Shown here: one piece after another, positions 3,659 to 60,100 of the stretch
How positions within the stretch are numbered: position 1 is the first letter of the stretch
How the letters are laid out: each line of letters opens with the position of its first letter
From: Tribonema minus
Lineage: Eukaryota > Sar > Xanthophyceae > Tribonematales > Tribonemataceae
Reading direction: 5' to 3'
Assembly (NCBI GenBank): GCA_017506865.1
Contig: JAFCMP010000041.1
Span: 310,001-374,000 of the forward strand
DNA: 64,000 bases
The notes under the pieces: generated by a model
Databases searched by the model: none
Seen by the model: the letters and a program-made list of their open reading frames with translations, nothing else
Told to the model about the DNA's origin: nothing
Position numbers and translations under genes: made by a program

Positions 3659-4068
3659 CCACGCGGGGCGGCGGCGATGAGTTCGGGCACAGAAACAGGG
3701 TGTGCCGGAACGAGAACTGCGCTCTCGCTCAGGCGGCGGAGGGGGGGGTTGCTGTCATCGACCGCGACACCAATGCGCGTGCCAACCTCGGCATGCGCGG
3801 CGTCTATGCCACGTGCGGCGTCGATGACATCATCCCGGGGTATGTCCCGGCGGATCAAGAAGAGGAGGAGGACACCGAAGAGGAGGAAAGCGACGAGGGG
3901 GACGCCGATGAGGAGGACGGCGACGAGGAAGACGACGAGGAGGAGGATGGCGAGGAGGGCGGCGACGTTGACGAGGGCGGTGATGGGGCAGGGGGGGGCG
4001 TCGATGACGGGGAGGGCGGTGGTGACGAGGAGGGGGTCGACGAGGAGGGGGATGCCACAATGGCATGA
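3659..4068 (+). pseudogene. Fanzor/TnpB-like C-terminal fragment (copy A)
   Basis: The frame reads through RNRVCRNENCALAQ, then VIDRDTNARANLGMRG, then an Asp/Glu/Gly-rich tail ending DATMA. The second Cys pair of the zinc ribbon and the RuvC-III-like DRDxNA motif are present. The first pair (CLVCG in the other copies) is missing because the repeat starts downstream of it. The upstream in-frame sequence does not resemble a Fanzor, so this is a 5'-truncated fragment, not a complete gene. Confidence 0.6.
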
Positions 4069-4416
4069 GGGGCAGTATTAAGGTTATGCAGCGGGGGTGG
4101 GGTGGGGGGGGGGGGGGGGGGGGGGACAGGCACGGGGGGTTTGTCACGCGGTGTGCGGGACTGCCGCAGCAGTACACTTCACCAGTCACTCATGCAAAAG
4201 CAGCAGACACAGGGTAGAAGTAGTGTACATGCTGCATTTGTGTTTGCAGGCGGGCGGGCAGTAGCACAATGCTCTACCCCCGCCAGAATTCTGGGCTGGT
4301 GTGCCTTCGGGCCTTGGTCACCAAGGAAACTTGAGTACCAAACGGACGTTGCGACGTCTGCGCTGGCCAAGGGCAATCTGCTGTTCGCAGCCTGCGGCAG
4401 CATGCCCTTATAATGA
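3659..4416 (+). mobile_element. Fanzor/TnpB-like repeat, copy A (shortest 5' end)
   Basis: This 758-bp segment is nearly identical to 12835-13595 and 47829-48587. Outside a Glu/Asp-coding microsatellite and a poly-G run of variable length, only about a dozen differences are visible. Its left boundary at 3659 lies inside the zinc-ribbon coding sequence, later than in copies B and C. Its right boundary (…CCCTTATAATGA) coincides with theirs. Flanking sequence on both sides is unrelated to that of the other copies, and no target-site duplication is evident. Confidence 0.8.
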
Positions 4417-4680: not shown

Positions 4681-5070
4681 GATCCATGATGCTTTACATG
4701 TGAAACATGGTGCTGATCTGGGTAGCGCAACGCGGATTCATGGCACTGTTGCAAGCGAGCACGTCTGTTGTGCGCAGCGCAACGTGAGTCCATGGCGCTG
4801 GACCCAAGGCGCTGTTGCAAGCAAATACGGGATCATGTGGGCAGCGCAAACGCAAACGTGGATCTACGGCGTCGTTGATCATGTGGGCAGCATTGTGACG
4901 ATCCATCATGCTTCATGAATTCACAAGTGAACATGGTGGTAACGTGAGCTGATGACGTGGGCAGCACCACGCGAATCCATGATGCTTCAAGTGAACACAG
5001 TGATGATGTGGGCAGCGCAGCGCGGATCCATGACGCTGTTGCAAGCACATACGTGGGCAGCGCAACAGAC
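4681..5070. repeat. Degenerate minisatellite, unit about 50-70 bp
   Basis: At least six imperfect copies of a unit containing GATCATGTGGGCAGCGCAA, then CGCGGATCCATGACGCTGTT and GCAAGCACATACGTG follow one another. Some copies are interrupted by GCTTCAAGTGAACA. The degeneracy suggests an older array. It is not a CRISPR array, because both units and spacers drift. Confidence 0.75.
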
Positions 5071-5205
5071 GCACAACCCGACACGCGCTGCAGATGCATT
5101 TGAGTCGGTAAAGTTGACATTGACACCGCGCGCCCGCTACAGGGTCTCGCGTGTGCGCGGCATTGTACCACTGTGCACATACACAATGCAACGGGGGCTA
5201 CATAG

Positions 5206-7505
5206 TTACTGCTCTGAGTCAGCTGGTGGCCACCTGTCCAGCCGCACAGGCCACTTGGCAACGTACCGATCGATCACCCCCGTCTTGTCCCCATGACGCG
5301 GCGTGTTCCTGCCCTCATACCAGGCCTTGTTCAACACGTGCTCCTCACCCTCAGAGCCTATGTTTTTGAACACCGGCTCTGTACTGAATGCATAGGACTT
5401 GTTCTTGCTGGTCAATGCACTGTAGTATCTACACTGGTCTCTGTGACTCCATACGTTGAAATTCATCATGTCCTCCTTGATCTGCGCTTTAGTACGCTTG
5501 ACATCAAACGCACCATCAGGCCCTCCGCAGTTGCCAATGTACCACAGCACAAACTCCAGGTACTTGACACAACCCTTGTTCAGCACATTTGACTTTGTGA
5601 TAGTGTATGAAGCCAAAGCTGTCGAGTCGCCTGGTTGACCGATCGTTGGCTTCGAGTCGCCTGGTTGATCAATCTTCGGCTTCCCACCTCTGGCCGCATC
5701 GCCCGCCGTCAAGCCCTCGCGCTCGCGCTTGCGCTTGCGCACCAACGCAGGCTCGTCGGGCTTAGAAGAGTGCTTCTCCTCCTCCTCCACCGCCGCCGCT
5801 GCCGTCGCTGCTGCCGCCGCAGCCTCCGCCTCTGCTTCCGCACCCGCTACTGGCGCAGGCACGGGCAACTCCTTCGGCACCTCACCCGAATCCGAAACTG
5901 AACCGGTTCCCGCTGCCGGCCCTGTCTCCACTGCTGCCGCCCCGTTGCGCCGAGGCGACCTCGTCCTGACCGCTGCCGCCGGCTCCTCACCCGAATCCAA
6001 ATCATATGGGTTTTTGCCGACCTCCACCTGTGACGACGAGCCGTCACCGCTGGGACAGCACGGTAAGTCGCTTACGCGCGTTGCACCCTCGAATGCCGTG
6101 CTGCCGCCGCCGCTGCTGTCTGTCTTGACGCGCTTGCGCATCCTGCTGGGTTCGTCGCCTGCCTGCTTCTCATTCACCGCGGCTGCTGGCGCCGCTGCCG
6201 CCGCCTCCTGCTGCTCTGCTGCCGCTGACTGCTGCTGTCCCGCTGCCGTTGCTGCTGCTGCAGCTGCCTCCTGCTGCCGCTTTGCCGCTGCTGTCGCTGC
6301 TGCCGCAGCTGCTGGTGGTGGCGTCGCTGCTGCTGCTGCTGCTGCTGATGCTGGTGTTGATGTTGTTGCCGCCGCCGCCGCTGCCGCCAGCGCCGGCGCC
6401 GCTGCCGCCAGCGCCGGCGCCGCTGCCGCCGCCGCCGCTGCCGCCAGCGCCGGCGCCGCTGCCGCCGCCGCCGCCGCCGCTGCCTTACTGGCGATAATGG
6501 CCTGCTTGTGCTTAGCGACTTCCTCCCACCATGTCAGGGCGCCCCCACCGCTGCCGCCTCCTGCTGCTTCCTCTGTCCGCCGCTCGTCTGGTGCCTCCTC
6601 CTCCCCCTCCTCGTAGCTGCCGTTGCTGTGGGGACCACCGCCCGCTGCTGTTGCTGCGCCATCGCCGCCTTCATGATGTTCGCAGTCGTTGCTGCCGTAC
6701 TCATGTTCGTAGTCGCCGTAGCCCCCCGCGGCACTGTCGCTGTCGTTAAGTGCTGCCTGCTGCTCTGCTGCATTCCCGCCCCCGCCCGCCGCCGTGCCAT
6801 TTTCGCCAGTGTCTATCGGCGGCGGCTTGTGCAGCTGCTCCCGCTCGGCCTGTGCCCCCAGCTGCTTTTGTTTGGCCTGACCCGCCGCAGTTTGCACGGC
6901 GACCTCTGCATGCAGCGGGGTGCCCTCAGCCTGTGCCACTGTGAGCGCGTTGTCCGCCCCTCTGGCGGCACGTGCGGGTGTGCGCGCTGCCGCATCCGTG
7001 TTTACTGACAACGCAGCCAAGTCAGTGCTGCCCGCCAGCACAAGCTGCGCCGTCGGCTGCTGCAGCACCGTCGCACGAACTGCTGGCAAGTCCGGCTTCC
7101 ACGCTGTTTGAATCTGCTCCGCTGCTGCTGCCGTCCGCTGCGTGAGAAGATCGTTGCGCAGCTTCGTCGCCGTTGCAGTAGCCTCCGCCTTCTGCTGCCG
7201 CATTATAGCTGTCTTTGCCGCCATGTCGTCAAACACCTCCTGTATCCTCTGCTGAACGTTTGGGAGCTGGGGGACTAGCTCATTGATTAGATCGACCAGC
7301 CTGTCCAAAGCGCCTGTCCTGTTTACAGGATTTAAGTACAAGTAGTCGCCCACACCTGTAGCGCCTTGTACTTTTCAGTGCACTCTAGCAGATCGATACG
7401 GACGTCCTCCGCAGCGCGCTGTGCCGCCAGCACCGCGGCTGCGCGCTCCTCTGCCGCCGCCAGCGCCGCGGCGACTGCGCGCGCTGCATCTGCATCTGCA
7501 TGCAT
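5206..7505 (-). CDS. Low-complexity Ala/Gln-rich protein with conserved-looking C-terminus, function unknown
   Basis: The proposed model has two exons: 7505-7372 and 7318-5206, joined in phase across a 53-bp GT-AG intron, giving about 748 aa. The start at 7505 (MHADADAARAV) is tentative, because a CTCTCTCTGCTGCAG acceptor just upstream at 7515 suggests another 5' exon. The N-terminal 200 residues are Ala/Glu/Gln-rich and probably coiled coil. The middle is poly-Ala, Gly, Glu and Pro with nuclear-type basic clusters (RKRKRER). The last 130 residues are of normal complexity (LNKGCVKYLEFVLWYIGNCG and FNVWSHRDQCRYYSALTSKN) and may be a folded domain I do not recognise. Two near-repeats of GDSKPTIGQP precede it. 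Confidence 0.5.
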
Positions 7506-11211: not shown

Positions 11212-12423
11212 AGCGCGCTGCCGACAGTTTTGTGTGTGCAGTGTGTTGTTTGAGCATTGTGGTGATGGCATCACAATACAAGCAGGTCAACAGCAGAATG
11301 GCGGCTAGCCCAAATCCACATGCAATTGTTGGCAGCAGCACAGAAGTCGCCGTCTACACAGAAGCCCCTGCAAATGCGCCTCTTGCACAGCGTCAGAGTG
11401 TGTGGCTTGCGATGCCTACACAAAGGCCACGAACTGTGTGCCCACATATATATATATATGTCGATGGCACCACATGAATGAGAGGAGATATCTGCAATGC
11501 TGGATGATTTTTCCACATCTGCCGCTGCTTGACTCTGCTTCGCTTCATTGACCAATGCCTGCAGTGCAAGCAAGAGCCAGCAGTTGACATGATATATGTT
11601 CTCTGACTGTACCTGATTTGTGCAGCATGCCCCATTATGATACAACGAACATCGTGTTTCCTCGTCAACTTGAAAGATGTGACTCTCCGCCCGCAGTCTG
11701 ATAGAAGTAAAAACTAGGTGTGGCGCTGCGCTGGCGCTGATACAGAGACGACAGGTGCGCACTCGCTGAGGTCATAAATTGCTGATGGTGATGTCGCCCA
11801 TTGTCTTCGTGCACCACTTCGGTGCAGTGTTCGCGGCTACAGTATGTTTTAGTTCTCCTGAGAGCCAGCACCGCAGGCTCTTGCATGAGTGTGCATACAT
11901 GCATGCTCTTGCCTTGTGTTATACTGGTTCAACAGTGCGCAAGGGCCCACTGCTGTCTATCTCGATGCACAATGTGAGCGAGCACATGACGGTCGGACGT
12001 GACCGCATGTGTCCTCGTGTCAGCAAGTGCCACGTGACTGCTACAGTTACAGGAGCGCATCAGATTGAAATGCAAGTCTGGAGTGATGTGTGCGTTCATG
12101 TTCGTCGCTGCTGTCATTAAAAAGCCTGGGGGCTCTCAAGGTCAATGGCATATCACACCAACGGCCTGTCATTCACTCATTCTGGTGCACATGATGTATG
12201 AATGTTGCGTAGAGCCAATGATTGTGATTCACTGCGCAGAGCTTTGACAGTGGGAGAAGAAGCCTTGGGGCTTTTGTGATTGTACATAGTATGTCCTCTA
12301 CAATCTGATGCGGTGTGCCCTCACGTGACTCTACCCCAGGGCCTGCCCCCACTGTAATGGTAACCCCCACTCATTCTGCTCTGTGTATACACGGTGCCCG
12401 TCCTTGTGGCTGCATCATCGCAG
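11212..12423. other. Non-coding or unresolved stretch before Fanzor copy B
   Basis: No convincing exon on either strand. A short (AT)n microsatellite lies at about 11446-11460. If copy B has earlier exons they should be here or further upstream, but I could not find a RuvC-I-like aspartate motif. Confidence 0.5.
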
Positions 12424-13248
12424 GTGCTGCGCGCCTACTGCACCACTTGGGGGCACCATGCAGATGCCATGTGGGGAGAGCTGCTGCACCCAGCACGACG
12501 GCATCAGAGGTTCAGTCGCTTCCGTGCGCAGCAGGCCGCCATTGCCAAGATGGCAGAAAAGCTGGCCCCAATTCGGCTGCAGCACAGGCCGCCGGGATGG
12601 AAGCGTGTGCGGGCCCGCGGCCGCCAGTATCCACGGCGCAGGCGCAGGCACAGGAGGTGGCGCGACACGCACAGGAGGCCCCGTCGCATCATCTTCTTCG
12701 GCGCATGTGCGCGCTTCCCCTCCCACGGCCGCGCTGCCATTCCCATCAAGAAATTGGTGGCGCAGCTGGCATGCCGGTGTCCGACATTGATGACGCCACA
12801 GCCATACAGTTTCGCCTCGTGCCTGGTGTGTGGACAGCCCACGCGGGGCGGCGGCGATGAGTTCGGGCACAGAAACAGGGTGTGCCGGAACGAGAACTGC
12901 GCTCTCGCTCAGGCGGCGGAGGGGGGGGTTGCTGTCATCGACCGCGACACCCATGCGCGTGCCAACCTCGGCATGCGCGGCGTCTATGCCACGTGCGGCG
13001 TCGATGACATCATCCCGGGGTATGTCCCGGCGGATCAAGAAGAGGAGGAGGACACCGAAGAGGAGGAAAGCGACGAGGAGGACGACGATGAGGAAGACGA
13101 CGACGAGGAGGATGGCGAGGAGGAGGATGGCGAGGAGGGCGGCGACGTTGACGAGGGCGGTGATGGGGCAGGGGGGGGCGTCGATGACGGGGAGGGCAGT
13201 GGTGACGAGGAGGGGGTCGACGAGGAGGGGGATGCCATAATGGCATGA
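12424..13248 (+). CDS. Fanzor (eukaryotic TnpB relative), C-terminal half with acidic tail
   Basis: Fanzors are RNA-guided nucleases related to TnpB, with a split RuvC domain. The visible order matches a Fanzor C-terminus: a helical Arg-rich segment (WGELLHPARRHQRFSRFRAQ), a strand motif RRIIFFGACARF followed by GRAAIPIKKLVAQL, and the LMTPQPYSFASC lead-in to the ribbon. Next come Cys pairs in CLVCG and CRNENC, and finally VIDRDTHARANLG, the RuvC-III-type DRDxNA motif. An Asp/Glu/Gly tail of about 75 residues after GYVPADQ ends DAIMA. The tail is unusual for the family as I know it. The exon has no good initiator ATG, and an acceptor-like CAG lies just before it, so upstream exons with RuvC-I are either unseen or absent. 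Copies A and C show that the family is dispersed. Confidence 0.6.
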   Translation: MLRAYCTTWGHHADAMWGELLHPARRHQRFSRFRAQQAAIAKMAEKLAPIRLQHRPPGWKRVRARGRQYPRRRRRHRRWRDTHRRPRRIIFFGACARFPSHGRAAIPIKKLVAQLACRCPTLMTPQPYSFASCLVCGQPTRGGGDEFGHRNRVCRNENCALAQAAEGGVAVIDRDTHARANLGMRGVYATCGVDDIIPGYVPADQEEEEDTEEEESDEEDDDEEDDDEEDGEEEDGEEGGDVDEGGDGAGGGVDDGEGSGDEEGVDEEGDAIMA

Positions 13249-13595
13249 GGGGCAGTATTAAGGTTATGCAGCGGGGGTGGGGTGGGGGGGGGGGGGGGGG
13301 GGGGACAGGCACGGGGGGTTTGTCACGCGGTGTGCGGGACTGCCGCAGCAGTACACTTCACCAGTCACTCATGCAAAAGCAGCAGACACAGGGTAGAAGT
13401 AGTGTACATGCTGCATTTGTGTTTGCAGGCGGGCGGGCAGTAGCACAATGCTCTACCCCCGCCAGAATTCTGGGCTGGTGTGCTTTCGGGCCTTGGTCAC
13501 CAAGGAAACTTGAGTACCAAACGGACGTTGCGACGTCTGCGCTGGCCAAGGGCAATCTGCTGTTCGCAGCCTGCGGCAGCATGCCCTCATAATGA
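13249..13595 (+). ncRNA. Candidate guide-RNA scaffold / conserved 3' region of Fanzor repeat
   Basis: About 345 bp of non-coding sequence follows the stop codon and is shared by all three copies to a common end. It contains a poly-G run, a perfect stem (CCTTGG-TCA-CCAAGG), a GACGT-TGCG-ACGTC stem and a CGCAG-C-CTGCG stem about 20 bp before the end. In characterised TnpB and Fanzor loci the guide RNA overlaps this position and its guide lies just past the element end. That role here is inference only; it could equally be an mRNA 3' UTR. Confidence 0.25.
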
Positions 13596-14240
13596 ATGCA
13601 TGCCTCTGCAATTCACAGTGCAAACCAACGCTTCTAGGCTACATGCCAATGTCAGCCAATGTCAAGGTGCATTATACACATGTACACGAGACACCAGAAC
13701 ACACACAACATGTCATTGTAACTCACAGTTGGGTGTATTTCAGGTTGCAAACATGTCTGTAAATCATCCCACTATAGGGGCCCCCCAGAGGCAAGAGCAC
13801 AGACACAGCGAACTCCCAGTATCTTAGGCAGAGCTAGGGACAACCCTTTTTGGCTCCATCCGCAGGCGGTCACGGAAGCAGCAAAAACGTTTCACCTAGT
13901 GTACCAGACTTTAGGCAAAGACGTGCGCAAAGTGGGGGGGCAGGGGGCCTGGTACGGGGGCTACTTGAGCCCGTGCCAAAGAGGCGTGACACTCGCAGAT
14001 CATTCCGTGTAAATGTCATGCCAACCTTGGTAAAGCACAGTCCCCAGAGAGAGTTCCCAAGTGCCTCTCGCCCCCCCACCCACCCTTGGCTCACGCCATG
14101 ATGATGTATCCGTTAGCTGTGCACAAAGCGCGACTCTTTTCTAAGAAGCTCAAGTTTGGTGGCGAAGGGGAGTGGGCGGGGGGTTGAAAGGGCAAAGGGG
14201 CTAACCCTAACCCTAGGTCACAAGTGAGCGCGCCCCCGCT
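13596..14240. other. Intergenic, no gene seen
   Basis: This separates the Fanzor copy B end from the DXS stop codon (convergent). It holds a short TTAGGG-type array at 14201-14215 and G-rich sequence, and no recognisable gene. Confidence 0.6.
14201..14215. repeat. Short interstitial telomere-like motif
   Basis: CTAACCCTAACCCTA, i.e. two and a half TTAGGG units. Related arrays lie at 15492-15515 (TTAGGGTTAGGGCTTAGGG type, in a DXS intron) and 40717-40730 (in a TMC intron). This suggests that the host telomere repeat is TTAGGG-like. Confidence 0.6.
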
Positions 14241-17200: not shown

Positions 17201-20200
17201 TTTACTGTGGTATCACATGCTGCACCGCCTGCAGAAGTCATCGGAGTGATGCCGAGTTCACTGTGAAGAACATGTTCATGTCAATGACAATGCTTTCATG
17301 TGCCATAAGCCATAGGCATATGCAAATGCAGAGTGGCAAGCAGAGTACAACGGTTATATGAGGTATGCCTATGTCTGTAGTCGTTTGCACTCAGCGGAGG
17401 ATGCAGTTCAAGTTATGGGATGCGACATACTTCAAGCCCTTCACTGGCCATGCATACATGTACGTGTATGTGTAGACACGCACCAACATACCCTATGCAT
17501 GCCACACACCACCATGCAGAGTCATGTAGTTAAGATGCTAATGAGTTGATTGCACACAAGCCACATCATTGACAGATATGCAACACGATCGCGTCATGAT
17601 AAAGTGATGCACATCATGATGTGAGTGCCTGAGCTGTAGCGCATGCAATGCGGATGCCGCATACCTGATCGTAGGCGCGCTGCATGAAGGTGGAGTAGAT
17701 GCAGCAGAAGGGCTTGAGGCCCTCAATTGCCATGCCTGCCGCAAACGTCACCGCATGCTGCTCTGCGATTCCCACATCATACGTCCTCTTGGGGAAGCGG
17801 CGGCCAAAGATGTCCATGCCGGTGCCTCCAGGCATAGCCGCAGTGATGCCCACCACAGTCCTGTCACATGAAGCAACACAGTCAACATAAAACAAGGAAA
17901 GTAGGTCAACGTGGCTGCCGTACATTACACGACTGGGCACTGCATAAGAACAGAAGGCTGCTCCACAACTCCCACATCCGGCGTCCACTTGACCATTGCC
18001 AACCTATAGTGACCATGCCTCAACCATTACACTGCATATCAGGCACATCACATGTTTTCATATGCACAGCAGCACATCACAAATAATCGTGAGTGCTGTA
18101 CTGCACGCTTCAACGTTTATCACCAACAAATCAACAAGTTGCATAGTCAATCGCACATATCGCCCCCAGTGTAAAAAAACAACTCCCTCACCTGTCCTCG
18201 GACGCAATGTCAATCAGCGTGTTGGCGAAGATGGTGGTGAGCGAGGGGGCAATGGCGGGGGGTCCCTTCTGCTGCCGCCCCGTTGCCACATCAAACTTGG
18301 ACACGCCGTGGTACTTGTCCGAGGCAGCCATGGCAGGGGGGTACCCCATGCCCTTCTCCGTCTTGACGTGCAGCAGCACCGGCTTGTCGTCAGGCATGTC
18401 CCTGGGGCACAACAAGCAGAGACACGCTAATGGCATGAGCTGATGTGCGCCGCGCATCGCAGAGCAGGCACTGCTGTCCCAAGCCTCGACGCCCAGAAAT
18501 GATAGATAATTCACGCACAGCTTGTGCGTCATCATGGTATGGTTAAGCTCAGCCGTGGTCATCATGGCATGATCAAGCTCAGCCGTGGTCCTGTGATAAT
18601 TCTCATGCCCAACAGGTCAAGGCCATTTGCGTCGCCAATGCTGTTTGTGGGACCACACTTCCACAATCAAAGTGCAGGAGTTCAGCAGTTGTCGGTGCTG
18701 GTCTCGACTTGCCCCGTGCACGCTTCGCTGACACTTTAACAAGACAAACAAGCTTCGAGGTGCAAAAACTGCCATGTACCAGTGCAATGGCGGACTGCCT
18801 TACGTGCTGTACCGGTGCAACAGCGGACTGGCTTACGTGCTTGCTTGCTGCTCACCTGATGTTCTGCAAGATGGGCACCAGGTTGTCCAGGTCGTGCCCA
18901 TCCACAGGCCCAACATAGTAGTAGCCCAACTCCTCAAATAGAGTGCCGCCAGACACCATTCCTGAACAACACAACAGCACAGCCACCATCACCGCGTCAC
19001 ATGAAGCGTTGATGTGTGCAACATGGCCGAGGCAGCGCCAATGTACGCCTTTGAAGAAGTGAACTGCAAGGCATGCTAAGCAGCAATGATGTGGCATGGC
19101 AACTACCAAAAAGCATTCCTTTGTGCTGTAAAGCGGCAAAGCGCGATACTTGAATCAGAGTGACTGAGGCATGATAAGGCATGGTAAGCACCACTGACTG
19201 AGGACCGCGCAGCAACACCCATGGAGACTTGACTGTGCAGCGCTTTTCTCTGTCAGTTAAGAACACAGCAACTTCAACTTCTGGACCGCCCACACTACAA
19301 AGCACAAGAACATGAAGAGACGACGCATGTCGTATTCAAAGATATGTTCAGCACCACTCAATAGCACAGCTGTCCACGATGAAGGAACAGCCGCAGTAAG
19401 TGAGCCCGTGCGCAGCGAGGGGCACAGCGCCAGAGCATCAGAATGCAGCAACTTTCCAGTTGCTCACATGCTGAACGCTGCTGCTATGCACACCATCGGC
19501 TTGGTGTGAGCCGCACTATCCAGGGCCACAACCACTACAGGCGGCGGTGCCGCAGCGCTTTGCGGCGCTGCGGCGGCACCCATATGATAAGACCCCCCTT
19601 GGCGGCTGATGACCTATCTAGACTACATCAATGGCGAAACCCCAAAACCGTAATGGCCATCGTTTGACGTGACAACTGTCAAGCGTTTGTGTTGTGTGAA
19701 CTGCCTTTGCACCTTACAACAGTATGCACATATTAACATGATGAACCGCGTTTGCGTCTTACAATGGGACGCATGTGTTTGCATGGCGGGCTGTTGGCAC
19801 AAGGTCCCTGCTGTGGTAGATTCTCTGATGATGCACCTTCATTTCCTTATGGTCACCACACGCTGGGCTACAGCTACATGAACTTTAGTAGTGACGAATA
19901 GAACAGGAAACGGCTGACAAGTATGTACAGCCAGGCCCAGGCCATCAAACTTACAAAGAACTGCAAGAAGTATGCTGTACACATACAGTCAGGATTTGAT
20001 GAACCACACCACGTTCTGTTTGCAGCGATGTAGGGTGACAGCTGCGCACCTCCCCTATGACAGCCTCACGCCTCTAAAGTGGTGCCAATTACTTGTTGCT
20101 CAATGTGTGTATCATGCCGCAAAAGCCATTTTCGATGCGCTGCGCTCCAACTCCCCCCGCTAGTTCTGTGTCAGTTACGCACCAAACTTCAACATCACCA

Positions 20201-21428
20201 CCACAATCGCTCACCTCGCGCGTACTCGTCAATCTTCTTGTTGACGTTCTGGATGGACCCCGGCAGCAGCTTGTTGAGCGTCTTGGCGACGTCGCGCACG
20301 TTTTTGAACGGCTTAGAGCTCAACAGGCGCCCCGTGTAGCTCGACAGCGCGCCCGCAGGCACGATCCCGCCCGCCGAGTGCGTCCCCGTCGGCAGCGACA
20401 CCTGCCCGTTGTCATTCAGAATGACCAGGGAGCGCTGGTTCAGGTAGCCCGCCGTGTTCATGGCCTCGAACGCCATGCCGCCGGTGATGGCGCCGTCGCC
20501 GATGACGGCAATGCAGTTGTTGCGCCTCCGCCCCATCTGCGACTTCCCCACCGACATCCCCAGCGCCGCGCTGATGCTGGTGCTGGAGTGCCCCGCGCCA
20601 AAGCAGTCGTACTCCGACTCCGAGCGCTTGGCAAAGCCGCTGATGCCGCCGCTCTGCCGCAGCGTGTGCATGCGGTGCCTGCGCCCTGTGAGTATCTTGT
20701 GGGGGTACACCTGGTGGGACACGTCCCAGACGATCCTGTCCTCGGGCGCGGCGTACACGTAGTGCAGAGCCACCGTGAGCTCTATGACTCCCAGAGAGGA
20801 GCCCAGATGGCCGCCCGTTTTGGACACCGCCTGAGGTGGCAGCACATGACAGTGTAGTGCACAAATGATGGCATGAACGTGATGAGACCGGCACCGCTTG
20901 CCATTGCGGGCAGAGTGCGTCACGGTCATGGGCATCATCATTATTTGTTCAGATGAGTGCAACACAGTCCTTGTGGCCTGTTGTAGCCATGCAGCATGAC
21001 GTGTGCAATGATGGCCTGCCTTTTGAGGCACTTAGAACCCGCACCCCAAAACCTCAATTATCTGTGTCCTCATTCATCATGGTTCCTACCTCCAGGGTCT
21101 CCCATCGCAACTCGTTGGCCAGCTGCTTAAGCTCGCTCAAGTTCAGCCTCTTCATGTCGGCAGGGGACTTCACGGCATCAAGTATGGGCTTGCTTGCAGG
21201 CCCATAGTAGCGCTCTCCTGAATCATGGTGGTGCTCGTGTACATTCATCGACACCCCCACGCCTGGCCGCGCAGAGGGCTGCCGTTGTCTGTGCCGTTGG
21301 GCTGCAACTGGCCTGCCGCCAAACGCCAGCGCCTTCGCCCTGGGGAGCTGTGTCTGCGTGCCCGCCCATGCTGCCGCTCCTGACACCGCTGCAGCGAGGC
21401 AAACTGCGGTCACGCTACGACCCACCAT
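14241..21428 (-). CDS. DXS: 1-deoxy-D-xylulose-5-phosphate synthase, plastid type
   Basis: DXS condenses pyruvate and glyceraldehyde-3-phosphate, the first step of the plastid MEP isoprenoid pathway. Nine exons fit with all phases closing: 21428-21090, 20830-20215, 18961-18856, 18401-18192, 17860-17665, 17077-16860, 16543-16354, 15819-15607 and 14408-14241, giving 751 aa. Residues 1-25 form a hydrophobic signal-like stretch ([18 protein letters not shown]), followed by an R/Q-rich transit-like region. [14 protein letters not shown] (about 191-204), the thiamine-diphosphate motif GDGAITGG (224-231) with a later [15 protein letters not shown] with catalytic Glu near 457, DRAG near 506 and RPMVLPD near the end are all present. 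The family motif WDVGHQAYPHK reads [11 protein letters not shown] here. Exon 8's start (after GCGTCGCAG) is the least certain junction. Tandem short repeats occur in introns at about 18525-18590 and 18777-18842. Confidence 0.95.
15492..15515. repeat. Interstitial telomere-like array in DXS intron 8
   Basis: TTAGGG and CTTAGGG units read three to four times in a row, inside the intron between DXS exons 8 and 9. Confidence 0.6.
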
Positions 21429-31625: not shown

Positions 31626-31826
31626 GCTCTTCGTTGCTAGAGCCTGCTAGTGCGGCTCCTGCACTGCCACGCCAACGAGCTGTCTCAACACACTCAACTG
31701 ATTTCAAATCTTCGCGCCCTCTACTCCCTATCAAAGGGGTTCTGTAAACCAGAGCGTGCCGGCCTGGGTCCGAGCCTGGGTCCGAGCAACAGCTACACTG
31801 AAAAGCTCACGCCTCACGCCGCAACC
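31626..31826. promoter_or_regulatory. Shared divergent promoter region, WDR76 / GT60
   Basis: Only about 200 bp lies between the start codons of the WDR76-like gene (-) and the GlcNAc-transferase gene (+). It must contain both 5' UTRs and both promoters. No TATA box is evident. A GGGTCCGAGCCTGGGTCCGA duplication lies near 31766-31785. Confidence 0.5.
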
Positions 31827-34800
31827 ATGCTGGTGCCGACCGGAGCCAAAGTGTGGGATGGAAACGGATGGAATGCCCTTGTAGACGATGACTCACTGCC
31901 CAAGCCACATCCTCCCCATAGCGAGAGCTACAAGGACCCCAACGCCACCATCTTCATCGGCGTGAGCGCTTTCAGAGACAAGCGATGTCCCAAGACGCTC
32001 TACAACTACTTCAGCAAGGCAAAGAACCCTCACAGGTTGAGAGTGGGCCTGGTACAGCAAAACAGCATTTCGGAGGACCCTGACTGCTTGCAGGGCTACT
32101 GCGACCTGATGAAAGCCGATGAAAAGTTCGCCACCAAGTTTGGAGACAAATGCCCTTACAAGGAGCAGATAAAAATCACGAGGGTGGAAGCAAAGCTCGC
32201 TGCAGGTGCGTGACCTCAGGGATGTATGGGCGACAAGCAGGCTGCTCAAAGCGCTGGTAACCGTTTTTGCAGGATCCACGGAGCGGCAGTTGCGCTTTCG
32301 TCAGCATAGGCGAGTACTGCACTGAATGCCGTCTTCATCAGTGCCATCTCGCACCACTTAAAATGTTCCTACAATATGTCTGTTGTTCGTGCACTCATGC
32401 AGGTCCCTGCTACGGGCGCCACATGCAAAGCTACATGTTGCGCGATGAGGAGTTCTGCATGCAGGTACGCAAGTGGTATATACGTACAAGTGGGCATGTT
32501 GTGCTGTCAAACACAACGTAACATCTGCCTTTTTTGTTCGACTCCTGCTCAGTTTATGTCTGAGCTGATGTCTCGAAGAGTGCCCAAATGTAGAGATGGC
32601 GTGTCAGGCAGTGATGCTGCTTTGTGCGTATGTGCTGCTTAGGGTTTAGGACGGGAAAATTGACTACCCAGTGAATATGATGCCTTGACACAGATTCTCT
32701 GTTTGCCGTTATAGTGCCTGCAGCTATGATGTTTGTAAAATGTTTCTGAAGGTGGTTGGTTCTAGGACCGCTGAAATTTTCAGCAACTCGAACTGTGTGG
32801 TGTTTTTTTGCTGAGTCTGCCATTTGCTTCAACATTTACATCTAATTGCAATGCTATGTTGTCATCTGTGAACTTATCCCTTACATGCTTGCTAAGATGG
32901 GCCATCTGCAGCATCATGATGAGCTGCAGACATTACTGTGTGCATGCATTCGTCTCAACCGGTGTGGCAGCGCAGCTTATGACGTGTTCACAGTGCGCAT
33001 GTCAGCATTCGCAGCGCGCAATACCACACGTGTTGCATGTGCTTGACATCTTTATACATACCCATGCAGACCGATAGCCACATGGACGTTGTGCCGGAGT
33101 GGGATGAGGAGATGGCAGCCATGTGGGGCAGGACGGAGAATGAGTATGGTGTGCTGACCACGTATGTGCACGTCAAGGAGAGCATTGGAACTCTGGAGCA
33201 GGCCAAGGATCGCAACAAGCTTGTGCCGCACCTGTGCCAGGTGTCGTTCACCGGCGGCAACAATCCGCGCTACGTGCAGGTGAGACTTGGACTCATGATC
33301 CGAGTCTTAAGAGTTAACACTCGTGAGCTTCTAGTACGCAACAAGAGTATGCTGACCATGCACTTTTTAAGCATGCATTATCTGTGTACTCTGAAATACC
33401 TACTTGAAGCATGAGGCGTGCTGCGTCGGTAGCAGCGCTCAGCATTTCTGGTCACCACCCTCAAGCGTTGCACTGAATTTGCGTATTTTGAATGTAAGCA
33501 TCCATGTACAGTAGCAGACACTGCACTTGTGTCAGATGCCATTTAAACAACCGGCATTTGTTGACAATTGTCGGCGCCTGAGGGCCAATGACAAATGGCT
33601 GCAACAAGCACTTGTTCAAGTGGCAAAAGTCATGGCGTGAGGCCTTTGTGCTGCCACAACTATTCAGATGAGCCGGCAGTACATGAGCTCCAGGAGCCTG
33701 CACTGGCTGCTGAACAATCACAGATTCAGTAATGGTGCAGTTTTGGCTTGCCCATGGCCAATGTGGCGTGCATATCGGTGGTTCTATTATCAGACCAATG
33801 TTGCATTATGTTGCTTAGGTTAGCAGACTGATCATGGGGGCTTGAGCTTACATTTGTCAGAGGCAGTCCTTGATGAGCGACGTACTACTTGAAAAAGAGG
33901 CATGACGTGCGCCATCCTTCGTTGAAAGTGCATTCCGCTTTGTGATTGCACATGTTGTCATCCGCACAGTTGCTTTCTGGTGCTGTCCCTACTTCGGACC
34001 ATATCGTTGCAAGTGTCCTGTGCTCCAGTGACGCATATACAACTAGCCGAAGACACGGGTGCCATTGCGTAATGCAGACTCGCGGTGACTAGCACATTGT
34101 TCACACTGTCATCACTGAGCGCTGTTGTCTGTAGCCCTGATTCAACTGACCGTGGCGTGCGCTGCTGCAGGCAAAGCTTGCAAAGCTGAACGGCCGACCC
34201 AAGCTCACCACGTCTTGGGCGGCAGGCTTCAGGTCAGTTGGCAGTTGCTTGTCAAGGTGTAGCATGGCAGATTCATGACCGCATAAAGCAATCACTGTAT
34301 ATTTGAGTGCACAGCTTGGCCGACAGTGGACGAGCAACAAAGGCGCTTCAACTTGCACCATGCATTCAATGCAGGCCACTCACTAGTCACTATTCGTCAA
34401 GGGTGATTCTTTCACCGTTACATGGGCAGGGGGGGCAGTAACTTCAAGTGGTAGTACACATCAGAACACCACCTGCATCCGCATCATGGTGTGCACCAGA
34501 TGGCCGGTGACCCCTAGCTATCACCTAGCCACTAGCCACAACTGTATGCGTGCATCATGCTGTATGCCGTGTCTGTCTCAGGATGAGCTGAGTACAATGC
34601 GAGCGGCACATGTGTGCCACCTACGCTATCCACTTGTCTGTAAACCTTAGGCATCACGCAGTGCATCTTGACTGATCTGGCAGGTACAGATCTGGACATT
34701 CAAGCTTAGGTTGATCTGCTGCTCACCTTGACCAATACATGCATTGAACATGGGTATCTTCGCTTCCTGTGCGTTGCAGCTTTGCCAAGTGCCATGCATG

Positions 34801-47812: not shown

Positions 47813-48242
47813 GTGCCTGGTGTGTGGACAGCCCACGCGGGGCGGCGGCGATGAGTTCGGGCACAGAAACAGGGTGTGCCGGAACGAGAACTGCGCTCTC
47901 GCTCAGGCGGCGGAGGGGGGGGTTGCTGTCATCGACCGCGACACCAATGCGCGTGCCAACCTCGGCATGCGCGGCGTCTATGCCACGTGCGGCGTCGATG
48001 ACATCATCCCGGGGTATGTCCCGGCGGATCAAGAAGAGGAGGAGGACACCGAAGAGGAGGAAAGCGACGAGGAGGACGACGATGAGGAGGACGGCGACGA
48101 GGAAGACGACGAGGAGGAGGATGGCGAGGAGGGCGGCGACGTTGACGAGGGCGGTGATGGGGCAGGGGGGGGCGTCGATGACGGGGAGGGCGGTGGTGAC
48201 GAGGAGGGGGTCGACGAGGAGGGGGATGCCATAATGGCATGA
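47813..48242 (+). pseudogene. Fanzor/TnpB-like C-terminal fragment (copy C)
   Basis: It encodes CLVCGQPTRGGGDEFGHRNR, then VCRNENC, VIDRDTNARANLG and the Asp/Glu/Gly tail ending DAIMA. The whole zinc ribbon and DRDxNA motif are present, but nothing of the helical or RuvC-II region. An ATG upstream at about 47733 keeps the frame open through unrelated sequence, so a short chimeric protein is possible but unlikely to be functional. Confidence 0.6.
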
Positions 48243-48587
48243 GGGGCAGTATTAAGGTTATGCAGCGGGGGTGGGGTGGGGGGGGGGGGGGGGGGGGACA
48301 GGCACGGGGGTTTGTCACGCGGTGTGCGGGACTGCCGCAGCAGTACACTTCACCAGTCACTCATGCAAAAGCAGCAGACACAGGGTAGAAGTAGTGTACA
48401 TGCTGCATTTGTGTTTGCAGGCGGGCGGGCAGTAGCACAATGCTCTACCCCCGCCAGAATTCTGGGCTGGTGTGCCTTCGGGCCTTGGTCACCAAGGAAA
48501 CTTGAGTACCAAACGGACGTTGCGACGTCTGCGCTGGCCAAGGGCTATCTGCTGTTCGCAGCCTGCGGCAGCATGCCCTCATAATGA
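47813..48587 (+). mobile_element. Fanzor/TnpB-like repeat, copy C
   Basis: This 775-bp copy begins at the GTGCCTGGTGTGTGG that encodes the first Cys pair of the zinc ribbon, 16 bp further 5' than copy A, and ends at the shared …CCCTCATAATGA. Upstream sequence is unrelated to copy B. Flanks show no clear target-site duplication. The acidic microsatellite is a hybrid of the patterns seen in copies A and B. Confidence 0.8.
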
Positions 48588-49328: not shown

Positions 49329-52300
49329 CTACGAGTCCTTCTTCTCAGACGTCTTCTTTATGCCGCGCAGGCGCCCGGTGCGGCGGGCCGCGATGAGGCC
49401 CACCTTCTGACCCGCGCTGGCCAGCCTCTTGGTGGTGGAGGGGTGGCCGATGTGCTGGTGGTTACCACCACCGTGGGGGTGCTCCACGGGGTTCATGGCC
49501 ACACCACGCACGCGCGGCCACTCGTTGCGCTTGACGCGGTACTTGTGGTACGCGCGGCCGGCCTTGAGCAGGGGCTTGTCCGTGCGGCCGCCGCCCGCGA
49601 TGATGCCCACCATGGCGCGGCAGTTGGAGAAGATGGTCTTCTTGGAGCCGGAGGGAAGGCGGATCTGGCAGAAAGGGAAGGAGGGGTGGGGGGGCGTCAA
49701 GTTCAAGTATAAATTACCGGATAAGCAGCGCGACCTGGGTGGTGCCCCATGAGCTCATCAAGGGACAGTGAAGAGGAAGAAGATACTCATTCGTCATGAC
49801 ATCATTCTGCAAGAATAGCTGACAGGATACTCATTCATCATGACATCATTCTGTAAGAATAGCTGACACGAGCTGCGTAGCTACATACGCATCACACACC
49901 CTTGCCCTGGTCACCAGAGAGAACAACGACAGACTCGCCAAAGTGGATCAACACACAACATATGTGACACAAACTCTCCCGAATCATGTACGCCTGCATT
50001 GACAATGTTTCAAATTGAGCAAACAAGTGAATGACAAAATGGTGTAAGATACATACCTTGGTGGTGCCCTTGTCCTCGTCGTGGGTGACGACAACGGCGT
50101 AGTCGCCAGAGCAACGCGCAAGGGACCCGCGGTCGCCGGGGCGGGACTCCACGTTGCAGATCACAGACCCCTCAGGCATGGAGCCGACGGGCAGGATGTT
50201 GCCAACGGTGAGCTGGGCTGTAGCGGCAGGCAGACACAGTTGAAGTTGCGTCAACGTAGCGTAGAGATGAGGTAGCAGTGTGTGTTGATGACAGGACTGA
50301 GTGTGGTGCTGTCAGTCGGGAGAGGGTCACAGGCGTGACTGCATTGACACTGCAAAGAAGAGGGCAGCGAAATCCAACAATAACCAGAGAGGAGCGCTGA
50401 CTGCAGTGAGAAACTGGCAAGACAGAGAGCGACAGCATGATGCGTACAGAATATGCTGATGCATGGGACTGCATGAGGTTTGCAGGCAACATCTGCATGC
50501 TGGGTTCATGCAACACTGCATGTCGCTCAGACGCCTGCACATGGAATGAATTGCTGAGGCTCAAGACTGCCTGCTGCATTTCATCAACAGAGTAAAGCGA
50601 GAACTTGTAGCTGTAGCTGCAACTAACCACACTTGCCACAGAGCAAAGTGAAAACAGCCATATGCCTAGCAATACATCATAATGCTCCCGCTAGCGTCTA
50701 TGAGGCCTGAAGCGCCAAAAGCAGGCCCACCACGGTGTGCATACCACGAAACACGCACCGAACCTATCACGAATGCACGTGACAACTTCAACTGAGTGAC
50801 ACTCACGCCGGGCCGCTCTCAAGTTCCGAATCCAGTCCAATGACGCACGTGACGTGACACAGCAGAGTGTGAGACATCGCAATGGCTGTTCGCGGGTGCC
50901 ACCCATACGGGCTGTTCGCGGGAGCCACCCATACGAGCTGTTAGCGGGAGCCACCCATAACATAGCCGTGGATCACAGCCGCTTGTGTGCAAGTTGCCCC
51001 ATGCCAAAGCACTCAGGGAACCCCGCTCTGCGCAACTCTGATAAAGAGGCACAAGGAAAAACTGGGGGCGCTCGCAGCAGCACCAGCAAACCGTGAGGCT
51101 GCATGTGCTGAAGCACGGCCATCCAGTGTGTCCCTATGACTGTGGTCACGGAGCAACGCGGAGGGAGCTCCCTGAGCAATGCAGCACGGGGCAACACAAG
51201 CGGGGATCGCGCCTCAAGGCAAAAGACGGTGACGCAGCATGCGCTGGCGTCACTGTCGCAGGCGCTGGTAATCACGGCATTGCTCAGTCAGTCACCGAGT
51301 GAGTGACTCGCGAATGACTCGCAGACGACTCGAGCGCTGAATCCCTCACTGACCCTTCTTGCCGCAGTAGATGAACATGCCAGTGTACATGCCCTCGGCG
51401 GCCACGATGAGCTCGTTGTCCTTCTTGTACTCGTAGGGGTTCTGGAACTGGATCTTGGCAATGGGCGCGCCACGTGCGGGCTCGTGGATGATCTCCTTCA
51501 CAACGCCCTTGATGTAGCCGTGCCTAGAAAAAGTGACAACGGCAAGGTAGCGAGTGTCAGTGGCTGTGCGAAGCTTCAAAGCGAGTATGGATAGGTGCAG
51601 ATGTGACAAAAGTGCTGGCGATAAAGAAAGTGAGTGGGTCATCATCTCCTGGGTAATTGGTGAAGGCTGCGATGCAACAGAAAACACGGTGTGCCGCAGT
51701 AAGTCTGTAGCACACAAATGGCGCATCTACAAGGTAGCTGTGACTAATTCCATTTGAAATGCCCTTGACAGAAGTAGGCGTACCCTCACCTGATGGTGGC
51801 AGCTCAGCATGCAAAATAAGTGTGTTTATAGATGCAAATTGCCAAGCATTGAGTTGAGTATCTGCCAAATGCCAAGCTTTCGGTGCCATGAAAGCACCTG
51901 AGCACGCTCTGAGCTGATACATGACTTCAGGTGGAGATATGAATGTTGTGAAGACGCAGCCAGTGGCCTGCTAATGCAGGGTACCCAAGAAAAGCGGAGT
52001 TGCCATGTGTCCTACGACTGCATCTGCTTTCGTGCTCGACAGCCAACCCAGCCTTCGGAGTGAGAACAACGACACGAGTCGACACATTTAAGAGCACCGG
52101 CAATGCTTGCAGGCAATAAAGCAGATGAGCGCCGACCCAGATTTTGAATACGTCGATGCACTGGCCCAGCCCAGGCAGGCCCAGGCAACACTGAGATATA
52201 AATGGTCCCCTAAGCAGCTGGACAAGCACTTGCAGGAGTATCAGCGACCACCAACGACGTCGCAAACGTCAACAGCACAATGATGAGCCGCACCAGCCTC

Positions 52301-57123: not shown

Positions 57124-60100
57124 ATGCCCAACAACCTGTTCAGCCAGCACACCGAGCTCTCGGATGAGGTGCTCGCCTACTTCAAGACGCTGCCGCAACA
57201 TGGGTTCATCATGGTGGAGTACATGTGAGTGCGCATGAGAGGTGGCAAATCTGGGGAGTGCGGTGGCGTATAAGATGGCGCCTGCCACCATGCGGCGATG
57301 CCTGCTGTGCTCATGACTGTGAACAACCTTATCCCACCCTTCTGCCAGTGCCAGTCTGGCAGCTTTCTAATTTGCGTGCGTGCGTTACTTGCATGCTACA
57401 GCTGGATCGGAGGCTCCGGCCAGGACTTGCGCTGCAAGACGAGGACCTTGCCGGCGAAGGACGGTGGCTACAAGCCCAGCGACCTGTGAGTAACGCGGTC
57501 ATCCTTAGCATATCTGTTTGTAAAAACTGCGGTGGTGGTCGAGCAAATGGTGTTTTGAGATCAACAAGGTCCGTCAGCGACCACCGATACATGCACCTCG
57601 GTGCCATGCGCCTGCCAATATCGCCACCAGCCTTGCTGATACCACCAACATTGGTTGTTCGCTTCTGTCTGCAGGCCCAAGTGGAACTTCGACGGCTCCT
57701 CCACTGGCCAGGCGCCCGGCGACGACAGTGAGGTCATCCTGTACCCACAGCACGTGTATGCCGACCCCTTCCGCGGCGGCGACAACATCATGGTGCTGTG
57801 CGACTGCTACAAGCCAGATGGCACACCCATCGATAACAACACTCGCGTAGCATGTGCCAAGTCTTGCGAGGAGGCGGCGAAGGAGATCCCGTGGTTCGGC
57901 ATTGAGCAGGAATACACCCTGTTCGAGGCCGATGGTGTCACCCCTTTTGGCTGGCCCAAGGGCGGATACCCCGGCCCCCAGGGACCTTACTACTGCGCTA
58001 TCGGCAAGGAGAACGCATTCGGACGCCACATCATGGAGGCACACTACAAGGCCTGCCTGTTTGCCGGAGTCAAGATCTCCGGCACAAACGGCGAGGTGAT
58101 GCCTGGCCAGTGGGAGTACCAGGTGAGACACGCAGCAGTTACTGCTGCTGGTGACTGCATTACCAGGCTTGTTGGCACACCGATCTGGCAAGGCTGTGTA
58201 TCCAAATCCACTCCAGCATCAGCCAAGGACGGAATTTGTTTCATCGTGAGTCCGCACGGCTTTTCAGCTCTGCCTGAATGGGAAATGGCATATAGTTGGT
58301 GTGTGTGGCAGGCAGTGTCAACATTTGGCCTGCGGCCAGTGCCAAACACGCTGTCTTACTGCGTGTCTCTGAGCCAGCTTGGCCTATGTTCTTGATGAAT
58401 GCCAAACTCAAACTTCCAGACGTTGCATCAATGCACGACAAACTTGCATACATTCAAGGAGATGTGAGAGTTGCTTCAAAGTTTTGAGAGTTGCAGGGTT
58501 CACTTGCATGCTCTGGCAATCCTTGTCATTTTGGCAGAACGCACAAGCAGCTATTTCATGATCTCACTTGATTGAGATGACAATATCTCTACAGAGAGAC
58601 AATACTATACTATGTTTCTCTGGCGATATCTCAATGGGAAATTTAGTGTGACAAAAACATAATGGTCTGTGCGCAACCTGTAACAGCTGATCTATCAGCG
58701 CAACGGTGTACGGACTCTTTAGTAGTTGGGTTGTTTTTTGTTTGCCCACAGCAATCGTGATTTATTCACAATCAATTTATCTTACAAAAGTACCACAATG
58801 TGCTGGCTGAAGCTTAAATCATTAATTGAGCACCATGTTAATACTGGTGTTGGGCTGCTGATGAGCAGTCGTGTCTGTCTTTAACATGTCGTGCCACATG
58901 CATTGGCAGAGGACGCACATGAATGGCCCCTCTTCATAGCCTTCAATAGGTCTGGCCATAGGTGTTGTGGCAGACACTTCAAATTGGAATCTTGTGCTAG
59001 CACTCGATTTGTTGCTAGTGAAACAATGTGGCACTTTCTGTCGTGCCACATGAATTGGCAGAGGATGCACATGAATGGCCCCTCTTCATAGCCTACAGCA
59101 GGTCTGTCAATAGGTGTTGTGGCAGACACTTCAATGTGGAATCTTGTGCTAGCACTTGATTTGTTGCTAGTACAACAATGTGGCACTTTCAGCGCAGTGC
59201 TTGATACTCAAAACTGAGAAAAATATCTGGAGCTGGCCTACCGAACACGTGAGACCTGTCCATACTGAACACCCATGCCTCGAACGCTAAAAAGCTTGCA
59301 CACAGAAGTCTTTTTGCCTACTGTGGTTATGGTGGCACTGTTTGACTCGTGGCCAATGACTGCAGCAGCGGCGACCACGGTTATTGGTGGAAGGCACCTG
59401 CGGCTAATCATCCCTTGTCACCTAGAGCTCAACGATATTTTTGGTTCGTTTTTCGTTTAGGACTCATGGTTGCACTTTTATTGTCAGTATATGCTGAAGT
59501 CATGTAGTACTCTGGGCCATGTCTTTGGCACATGCCATGAAAGGCATGCAGTCAGGCATTTTTTTGAACATGAGGGCGATGCCGCCTTGAGATTTCAGCG
59601 ACTGTGCTTACCCCATGAGAATGAAATTGCGAAAGAGAAACAATCTAATGATGTTCGCACTTGTGCTGAATTCATCACCTCTTGTCGCAATCTATCTCAA
59701 GAAAGTAATCAATTCTACAGATTCTTCGCTCTTCACGTGGCTGCAGCTGGGGTCATACGTCAATCGTCAATCACAGTCTTGTGGTGTCAAAAACGCATGT
59801 TGGCCTCTAATGAGTGTGCCATCAATCCGCGTGTTCCACGTAACTCCAGGTGGGCCCTTGCATTGGCATTGACGCCGGTGACGACCTGTGGGTCTCACGC
59901 TACCTGCTCCAGCGCGTGTGCGAGCTGTTTGGCATCATTGTCTCACTCGACCCCAAGCCCATCCCCGGGGACTGGAACGGTGCGGGTTGCCACACCAACT
60001 ACTCCACAGAGGCCATGCGCAACCCTGGTGGCTACGCCAAGATCATTGAGGCCATTGAGAAGCTGGCCAAGAAGCACGAGCAGGTGGGTTTGATACATGT

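Follow-up and report, generated by a model that had tools for sequence, protein, structure and literature searches.

Results

Architecture of copy B

Copy B, located at positions 11623 to 13595 of the DNA under study, is very probably a dead, internally deleted derivative of a mobile element of about 6.6 kb, the sole recognised gene of which encodes a Fanzor1 protein in six coding blocks. It was shown at the level of sequence that its last exon is Fanzor-like, that longer relatives carry RuvC-I blocks and that copy B lacks these blocks while both element ends are kept. The window, meaning the whole stretch of 64,000 nucleotides that was analysed, corresponds to positions 310001–374000 of the 423-kb contig C41 in the Tribonema minus assembly (158 Mb, 554 contigs). 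Loci in this genome are given L numbers, copy B being L001, and contigs are given C numbers. The following features were identified in copy B and in two related pieces of the window.

11623–13595, + strand, copy B as a whole: an internally deleted Fanzor1 element of 1973 bp, whose 5' block and 3' part match longer copies with a deletion between them
11623–11861, + strand, 5' terminal block of the element, beginning CAGCATGCCCCATTATGATACAACG
11861–11862, + strand, junction of the internal deletion, at which about 4.7 kb present in the L009 element, with coding blocks 1–5, is absent
11862–12423, + strand, 3' portion of the putative last intron, with cag/gtg at its end; in longer copies this intron separates the RuvC-I block from the last exon
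12364–13248, + strand, open frame of 294 aa, stop to stop, holding the last exon
12424–13248, + strand, last exon of the Fanzor1 gene: RuvC-II strand region, zinc ribbon, RuvC-III RD and acidic tail
12688–12702, + strand, IIFFG of the RuvC-II strand, with Gly at the canonical Glu position
12799–12801, + strand, codon at the alternative Glu (Ealt) position, CAG for Gln in copy B
12820–12900, + strand, zinc ribbon, CLVC ... CRNENC
12934–12972, + strand, RuvC-III motif VIDRDTHARANLG with RD intact
13480–13595, + strand, folded 3' end in which a terminal hairpin is followed by TCATAATGA: a candidate for an omega-RNA scaffold, a transposon end hairpin or both
3659–4416, + strand, copy A: a 5'-truncated piece of the copy-B element, 98.3% identical to B over 758 bp
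47813–48587, + strand, copy C: a 5'-truncated piece of the copy-B element, 98.5% identical to B over 782 bp

The 5' terminus of copy B (~11623) was placed at the point where unrelated flanks begin agreeing. The segment 11655–11861 was 98–99% identical to four of five 5' ends found on contig C9 and 94% identical to the fifth. Copy B was considered as a 5'-truncated copy starting at 11862 and this was rejected, because 11655–11861 is the element's own 5' end. Aligned to the L009 element, copy B covers positions 71–258 and then 4931–6622, and other copies extend upstream past the point equivalent to 11862 with sequence that is absent from copy B. L016 looks like another derivative formed by internal deletion. 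An earlier note, made from the letters alone, had described a Fanzor-type module at 12424–13595. The right-hand limit is the common 3' end of the copies and 12424 is a putative splice acceptor (cag/gtg), but coding ends at 13248, and the repeat itself begins further left, at ~11623, with 11862 as its internal deletion junction. What stands of the module is a Fanzor1-type remnant, not one in working order.

For the missing RuvC-I aspartate the same note had offered two explanations, a remnant of a larger gene or unseen 5' exons. Searches with the RuvC-I exon and the N-terminal exon gave no match at E ≤ 0.001 on contig C41 with all candidates scored, so that RuvC-I of copy B is deleted rather than hidden; in place of unseen exons the element's 5' terminus was found there, to the left of the last intron. 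The RuvC-I, WED and REC exons are thus deleted from copy B, as the first explanation held. The right flank of copy B occurs a single time in the genome, and there is therefore no empty site for comparison.

Copies A, B and C share the same 3' end point, and A and C contain just a portion of the last exon. G runs of 20–22 are found in the 3' non-coding part of all three (B 13284–13304, A 4104–4125, C 48278–48297). GC content was 0.54 in the T. minus DNA examined, and two 152-bp units, 92% alike, lie in tandem at 58887–59190 of the window. Parts of ordinary genes were also recognised in the window:

20195–21031, - strand, DXP synthase
31641–32213, GlcNAc transferase
49329–49754, - strand, ribosomal protein L2
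53829–54611, membrane transport protein
57640–58395, glutamine synthetase

Homology of the last exon

The peptides on which the first assignment had been based (RRIIFFGACARF, GRAAIPIKKLVAQL, CLVCG, CRNENC and VIDRDTHARANLG) all fall inside the single frame 12364–13248 on the + strand. The C4 zinc ribbon followed by RD is present in copy B, the second Cys pair being CxxxxC rather than CxxC, and in the RuvC-III motif 11 other aligned copies have N where copy B has H. The Ealt site of copy B lies in TPQPYSFASCLVCG, 7 residues ahead of the first zinc-ribbon Cys.

An alignment, A1, was made of eleven long single-exon frames of 789–983 aa from the T. minus genome (among L031–L042). Columns without variation in A1 include the Asp of RuvC-I, three Cys of the zinc ribbon and the RD of RuvC-III. 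The C-terminal profile of A1, built from long ORFs located elsewhere in the genome only, was run on 1510 sequences made up of the copy B exon, 500 shuffles and window frames of at least 40 aa. The copy B frame was matched at E = 7.6e-43 and the exon at E = 7.9e-41 (match 12433–13035), which bears out the assignment to Fanzor/TnpB from motif order. Copy C (E = 3.3e-10) and copy A (E = 2.5e-8) were, with copy B, the only window frames of this length matching at E < 0.1, and among the 500 exon shuffles the best value was 0.0056 and the next 0.009.

Direct searches of copy B against Pfam, NCBIfam and PDB gave no significant match, the acidic tail having dominated some of these searches, and none of the three window copies scored above a Pfam cut-off. 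The Pfam model nearest to copy B was zf-tcix, at 13.6 bits against a cut-off of 31.2, as might be expected if the exon belonged to an unrelated zinc-ribbon protein in which RuvC-like motifs occur by chance. That reading is refuted by the profile match at E = 7.6e-43 and by the colinear DPG and TDG blocks upstream within the same element, and we give it practically no credence.

The Fanzor1 origin of the exon can be followed into public models through full-length relatives. The locus L036 passed the Pfam TnpB zinc-ribbon model PF07282 with 27.2 bits (cut-off 26.3), the only one of 7 long ORFs scanned to do so; L035 was just under at 26.1, three scored 13.1 to 21.2 and two were not listed. Against the guided_TnpB model L036 and L035 gave 1.4e-4 and 2.6e-4, far under its cut-off of 100 bits. 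A PDB search with the A1 profile gave weak matches to TnpB (8bf8, E = 0.24) and Cas12m (E = 0.25), and one with L036 a weak match to a TnpB-like L79 chain (E = 0.32). The structure predicted for the exon alone was uninformative, with a mean pLDDT of 37.7. The tie of copy B to TnpB/Fanzor models is therefore indirect, by way of its full-length relatives: the profile match that the earlier note had proposed as a check of its translation failed in Pfam and NCBIfam and was obtained with the relative L036.

Longer copies and the parent element

Queried with the copy-B exon, the genome returned at least 171 matches at E ≤ 10, some of them distant paralogues, with 150 of 214 candidates scored, and long single-exon Fanzor-like frames occur among them. 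Longer homologues carrying RuvC-I, which the earlier note had proposed to seek genome-wide, were found with VDPGQ upstream. Upstream extension yielded four longer copies (L003, L006, L009 and L015) with six colinear coding blocks spanning A1 positions 57 to 829, in the order N-terminal block, two middle blocks, TDG block, VVTGVDPGQ block and last exon. The element is ~6.6 kb long in L009. The DPG motif at RuvC-I reads VVTGVDPGQ in three of the four and VDPDQ in L015, and the TDG motif of the WED domain reads MTDGH in all four, the frame of L003 breaking directly after it. We infer that the non-coding stretches between the blocks are introns, the last of them lying between the RuvC-I block and the exon retained in copy B. 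Frame changes or stops interrupt several of the blocks, as the stop in the N-terminal one of L006 does, and for this reason an intact gene is claimed for no single longer copy. Profile matches that were weak and out of order, at E 0.14 to 2.9 within the four copies and at 4.0 upstream of L015, were disregarded.

Inspection by eye of the open frames of the four longer copies revealed neither a transposase nor a resolvase or serine recombinase. The copy-B family lies in stretches with few long frames, and it groups with Fanzor1-like proteins in a tree of the RuvC part. A text search of the open-access literature found no report of the family.

Element ends and spread

The copy-B family ends in CAGCATGCCCTCATTATGATACAA and CCCTCATAATGA, the latter being the common 3' end of the copies, with variants; the 5' starts of other copies vary widely. 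The two termini of the element, left and right, form near direct repeats, CAGCATGCCC(T)CATWATGA. The terminal 18-mer was found in 53 places at ≤1 mismatch and its reversed control in 0. At least 40 genome matches were obtained to the last 273 bp (40 of 60 candidates scored) and 29 match rows to the 207-bp 5' end (28 of 28 scored). Over-abundance of 3' ends and 5' truncation are thus seen in the family, with a 3' query that was the longer of the two (273 vs 207 bases). Copies truncated at the 3' side exist too: beyond some N-terminal exons, such as those at C9:315038 and C9:358705, no last-exon match is listed. On contig C525 three 3' ends of the family, at 109686, 115169 and 120654, are ~5.48 kb apart and probably form a tandem array.

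Of 15 copies 12 were validly compared and showed no clear target-site duplication, the longest shared flank string being 6 bases; the comparison was invalid for B and L016, for which the left boundary was wrong, and for L022, for which it was missing. In L025 the 6 bases AAAGCT stand near both junctions, as a short duplication or by chance. TTTT directly before 5' ends starting with CAGCATGCCC was not found. The Helitron_like_N model matched 15 times on 14 genome contigs, so that a possible carrier exists; of these contigs only C190 also has the terminal 18-mer, ~630 kb away.

One 3' end shared by copies with many different 5' ends would also be produced by LINE-type retrotransposition of a Fanzor transcript, and the AAAGCT of L025 could then be a short duplication. 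This origin is disfavoured because introns are retained in the four longer copies. Furthermore, a poly-A tail was absent at the 3' ends inspected, and B and L016 join a 5' block to a 3' part as deletion derivatives do. We consider retrotransposition very unlikely and copy B to be a product of internal deletion.

Folding of the 3' end

The last 116 nt of copy B folded as DNA more stably than shuffles (z -3.41), the last 61 nt alone giving z -1.07. The RNA fold of the 125-nt 3' end gave z -2.39 for copy B, -2.46 for L009, -2.44 for L080 and -2.35 for L045, and was weak in two of the six sequences (L013, z -1.38; L079, z -0.46). The element's 5' end showed no fold (z +1.19). Compensatory pair changes were absent from the 3' fold since the sequences are too alike, and Rfam at gathering scores gave no match within 11500–13700. 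The 3' fold is compatible with an omega-RNA as well as with a terminal hairpin of the Helitron type, and neither is proven. If it is an omega-RNA scaffold, the candidate guide of copy B would start at 13596.

The Ealt residue and selection on the exon

The Fanzor fingerprint consists of DPG together with a relocated Glu (ExxxxxxCxxC), and of TDG in Fanzor1, according to PMC10711439. Among 30 loci of the copy-B family 24 were readable at Ealt, of which 14 (copy B counted) have Gln and 10 have Glu. A single origin of Gln was rejected, as the tree needs four changes of state; gene conversion and repeated change are both possible explanations. GtFz1 is active with Asn at the third catalytic position (PMC11423790). 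Gln can therefore not simply be called dead in the full-length sisters of copy B.

Pairwise dN/dS was 0.49 among the 14 Gln-type copies, B included (codon bootstrap 0.32–0.70), and 0.60 among the 10 Glu-type copies (0.47–0.77); an earlier count on 12 copies had given 0.40. Nuclease-dead relatives of TnpB have been retained for RNA or DNA binding. The value for the Gln-type copies, together with an exon in which no stop occurs in 11 of the 13 first-listed places (L001–L013, with one stop each in L008 and L013), could indicate that selection acts on the truncated last exon as a product in its own right: a C-terminal mini-Fanzor that lacks nuclease activity and has been domesticated for such binding. 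This constraint is, however, explained by the active parents of the copies, and the Glu-type copies are also below 1. The exon moreover lacks the start codon of exon 1, its first in-frame ATG being at 12469, within the exon, and copies A and C contain only part of it. A selected mini-protein is therefore highly improbable, and we take copy B for a dead remnant.

A Fanzor1 clade with the canonical Glu and other Fanzors

At seven loci (L031–L034, L047, L073 and L074) the canonical RuvC-II strand reads FEDG and Ealt is occupied by Ala, Cys or Ser, which holds for all seven readable members of the clade; in L074 the two sites fall in separate frames. L075 belongs to the same clade and its canonical strand is unreadable. 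In the remaining sequences that were readable at both sites, Gly occupies the canonical position and Glu occupies Ealt, with Gln instead of that Glu in part of the copy-B family; L023 carries an insertion at this place. The Fanzor2-like L083–L085 are more distant, with Pro at the canonical strand in the alignment neighbourhood. The frames concerned are as follows.

L031, 2282–4705, full-length canonical-Glu frame
L032, 1924–4299, full-length canonical-Glu frame
L033, 3260–5635, - strand, full-length canonical-Glu frame
L034, 2119–4506, full-length canonical-Glu frame
L083, 187–2062, IS607-type element, a resolvase-like frame overlapping a Fanzor2-like frame
L084, 253–2149, - strand, IS607-type element of the same make-up
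L085, 272–1126, short TnpB-like frame with DPG and Ealt (PF07282, 54.1 bits)

The four full-length canonical-Glu frames carry DPG and TDG. Of their six pairs, five have dN/dS values of 0.12–0.18 and the closest has 0.41, which indicates purifying selection. In the RuvC-part tree, rooted on three Fanzor2-like proteins, they form one clade (100/100) within the Fanzor1 side; branch order beside it is not fixed and long branches were flagged. In L083 and L084 Ealt is present and DMG stands in place of DPG at RuvC-I; for L083 the families were confirmed by a Pfam scan.

Most contigs of the canonical-Glu clade look viral, with dense single-exon frames. The giant-virus late transcription factor VLTF3 was matched on C112, C179, C21 and C90 of this clade and gave no match on C514, C110 and C201. 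Genome-wide it had eight matches, on contigs C223, C90, C179, C112, C21, C9 and C445. The contigs bearing VLTF3 are probably endogenous giant viruses. Scans of viral contigs with copy B, A1, L031 and L036 gave no relatives. Histidine kinase, phytochrome and ankyrin frames were seen near some Fanzors. At L031 and L039 the single-exon Fanzor1 is accompanied by a DDE transposase frame within the stretch.

In PMC10711439 Fanzors with the canonical Glu are considered to be misannotated prokaryotic TnpBs. The clade described here would contradict that view, provided that the alignment of the strand is correct. Taken together with the spread of copy-B family members having Gln, it raises the possibility, which we put forward tentatively, that the catalytic Glu of Fanzors is not fixed at Ealt. 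If true, Fanzors would be able to revert their active site, contrary to the misannotation view as published.

Discussion

Judged from sequence alone, copy B is no functional nuclease gene. As a locus it is an ordinary fossil, and its relatives are more surprising. By analogy with known Fanzors, the protein of an intact parent would bind an omega-RNA transcribed from the element's 3' end and take its guide from the DNA just past that end. So guided, it would cut matching DNA and thereby help the element to persist. Copy B would yield no such enzyme; at most it might be moved in trans by way of its ends, or its 3' end might supply a full-length protein with guide RNA. The element itself probably moves in the manner of the one-ended Helitron2-type Fanzor1 families of Chlamydomonas, this being the weakest step of the proposal.

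Through copy B a Fanzor1 family interrupted by introns came to light. Its ends can be read, its copies are numerous, and Glu and Gln occur naturally side by side at a catalytic position; IS607-type Fanzor2 and virus-associated Fanzor1 are present in the same genome. Which active-site arrangements allow a Fanzor to cut, and what role cutting has in the spread of the element, could thus be tested in one organism.

Compared with the Fanzor1 proteins SpuFz1 and GtFz1, as described in PMC10432273 and PMC11423790, the longer T. minus copies share the DPG, TDG, zinc-ribbon and RD marks, whereas copy B lacks all that is upstream of the last exon and has Gln at Ealt. IS4-type Fanzor1 elements are reported from Ectocarpus and its virus EsV-1 in PMC3627910 and PMC13236599. 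L031 and L039, with their single-exon Fanzor1 and DDE transposase frame, resemble these, whereas the copy-B family is split by introns, has few long frames around it and showed no transposase by eye. IS4-type Fanzors on giant-virus-like elements, a DXP synthase, a GC content of 0.54 and genes split by introns would together fit a relative of the brown algae. IS607 Fanzor2 elements are likewise represented in T. minus, by L083 and L084; the copy-B family differs from them in that no resolvase was noticed by eye and in its grouping with Fanzor1-like proteins.

The closest known systems are CRe-1, CRe-2 and CRe-3 of Chlamydomonas reinhardtii, described in PMC3627910 as non-autonomous Helitron2 elements carrying a Fanzor1 of 5 or 10 exons. 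Truncated CRe copies have target-site duplications of 7–19 bp after a T-rich tetranucleotide (PMC3627910), whereas the copy-B family has no clear duplication and no TTTT before the 5' end. The comparison is one of habit: the gene has several exons in both, with six blocks in T. minus, and the 5'-truncated and internally deleted copies, the over-represented 3' ends and the hairpin near the 3' end that are reported for CRe-1/2/3 (PMC3627910) are also found in the family of copy B.
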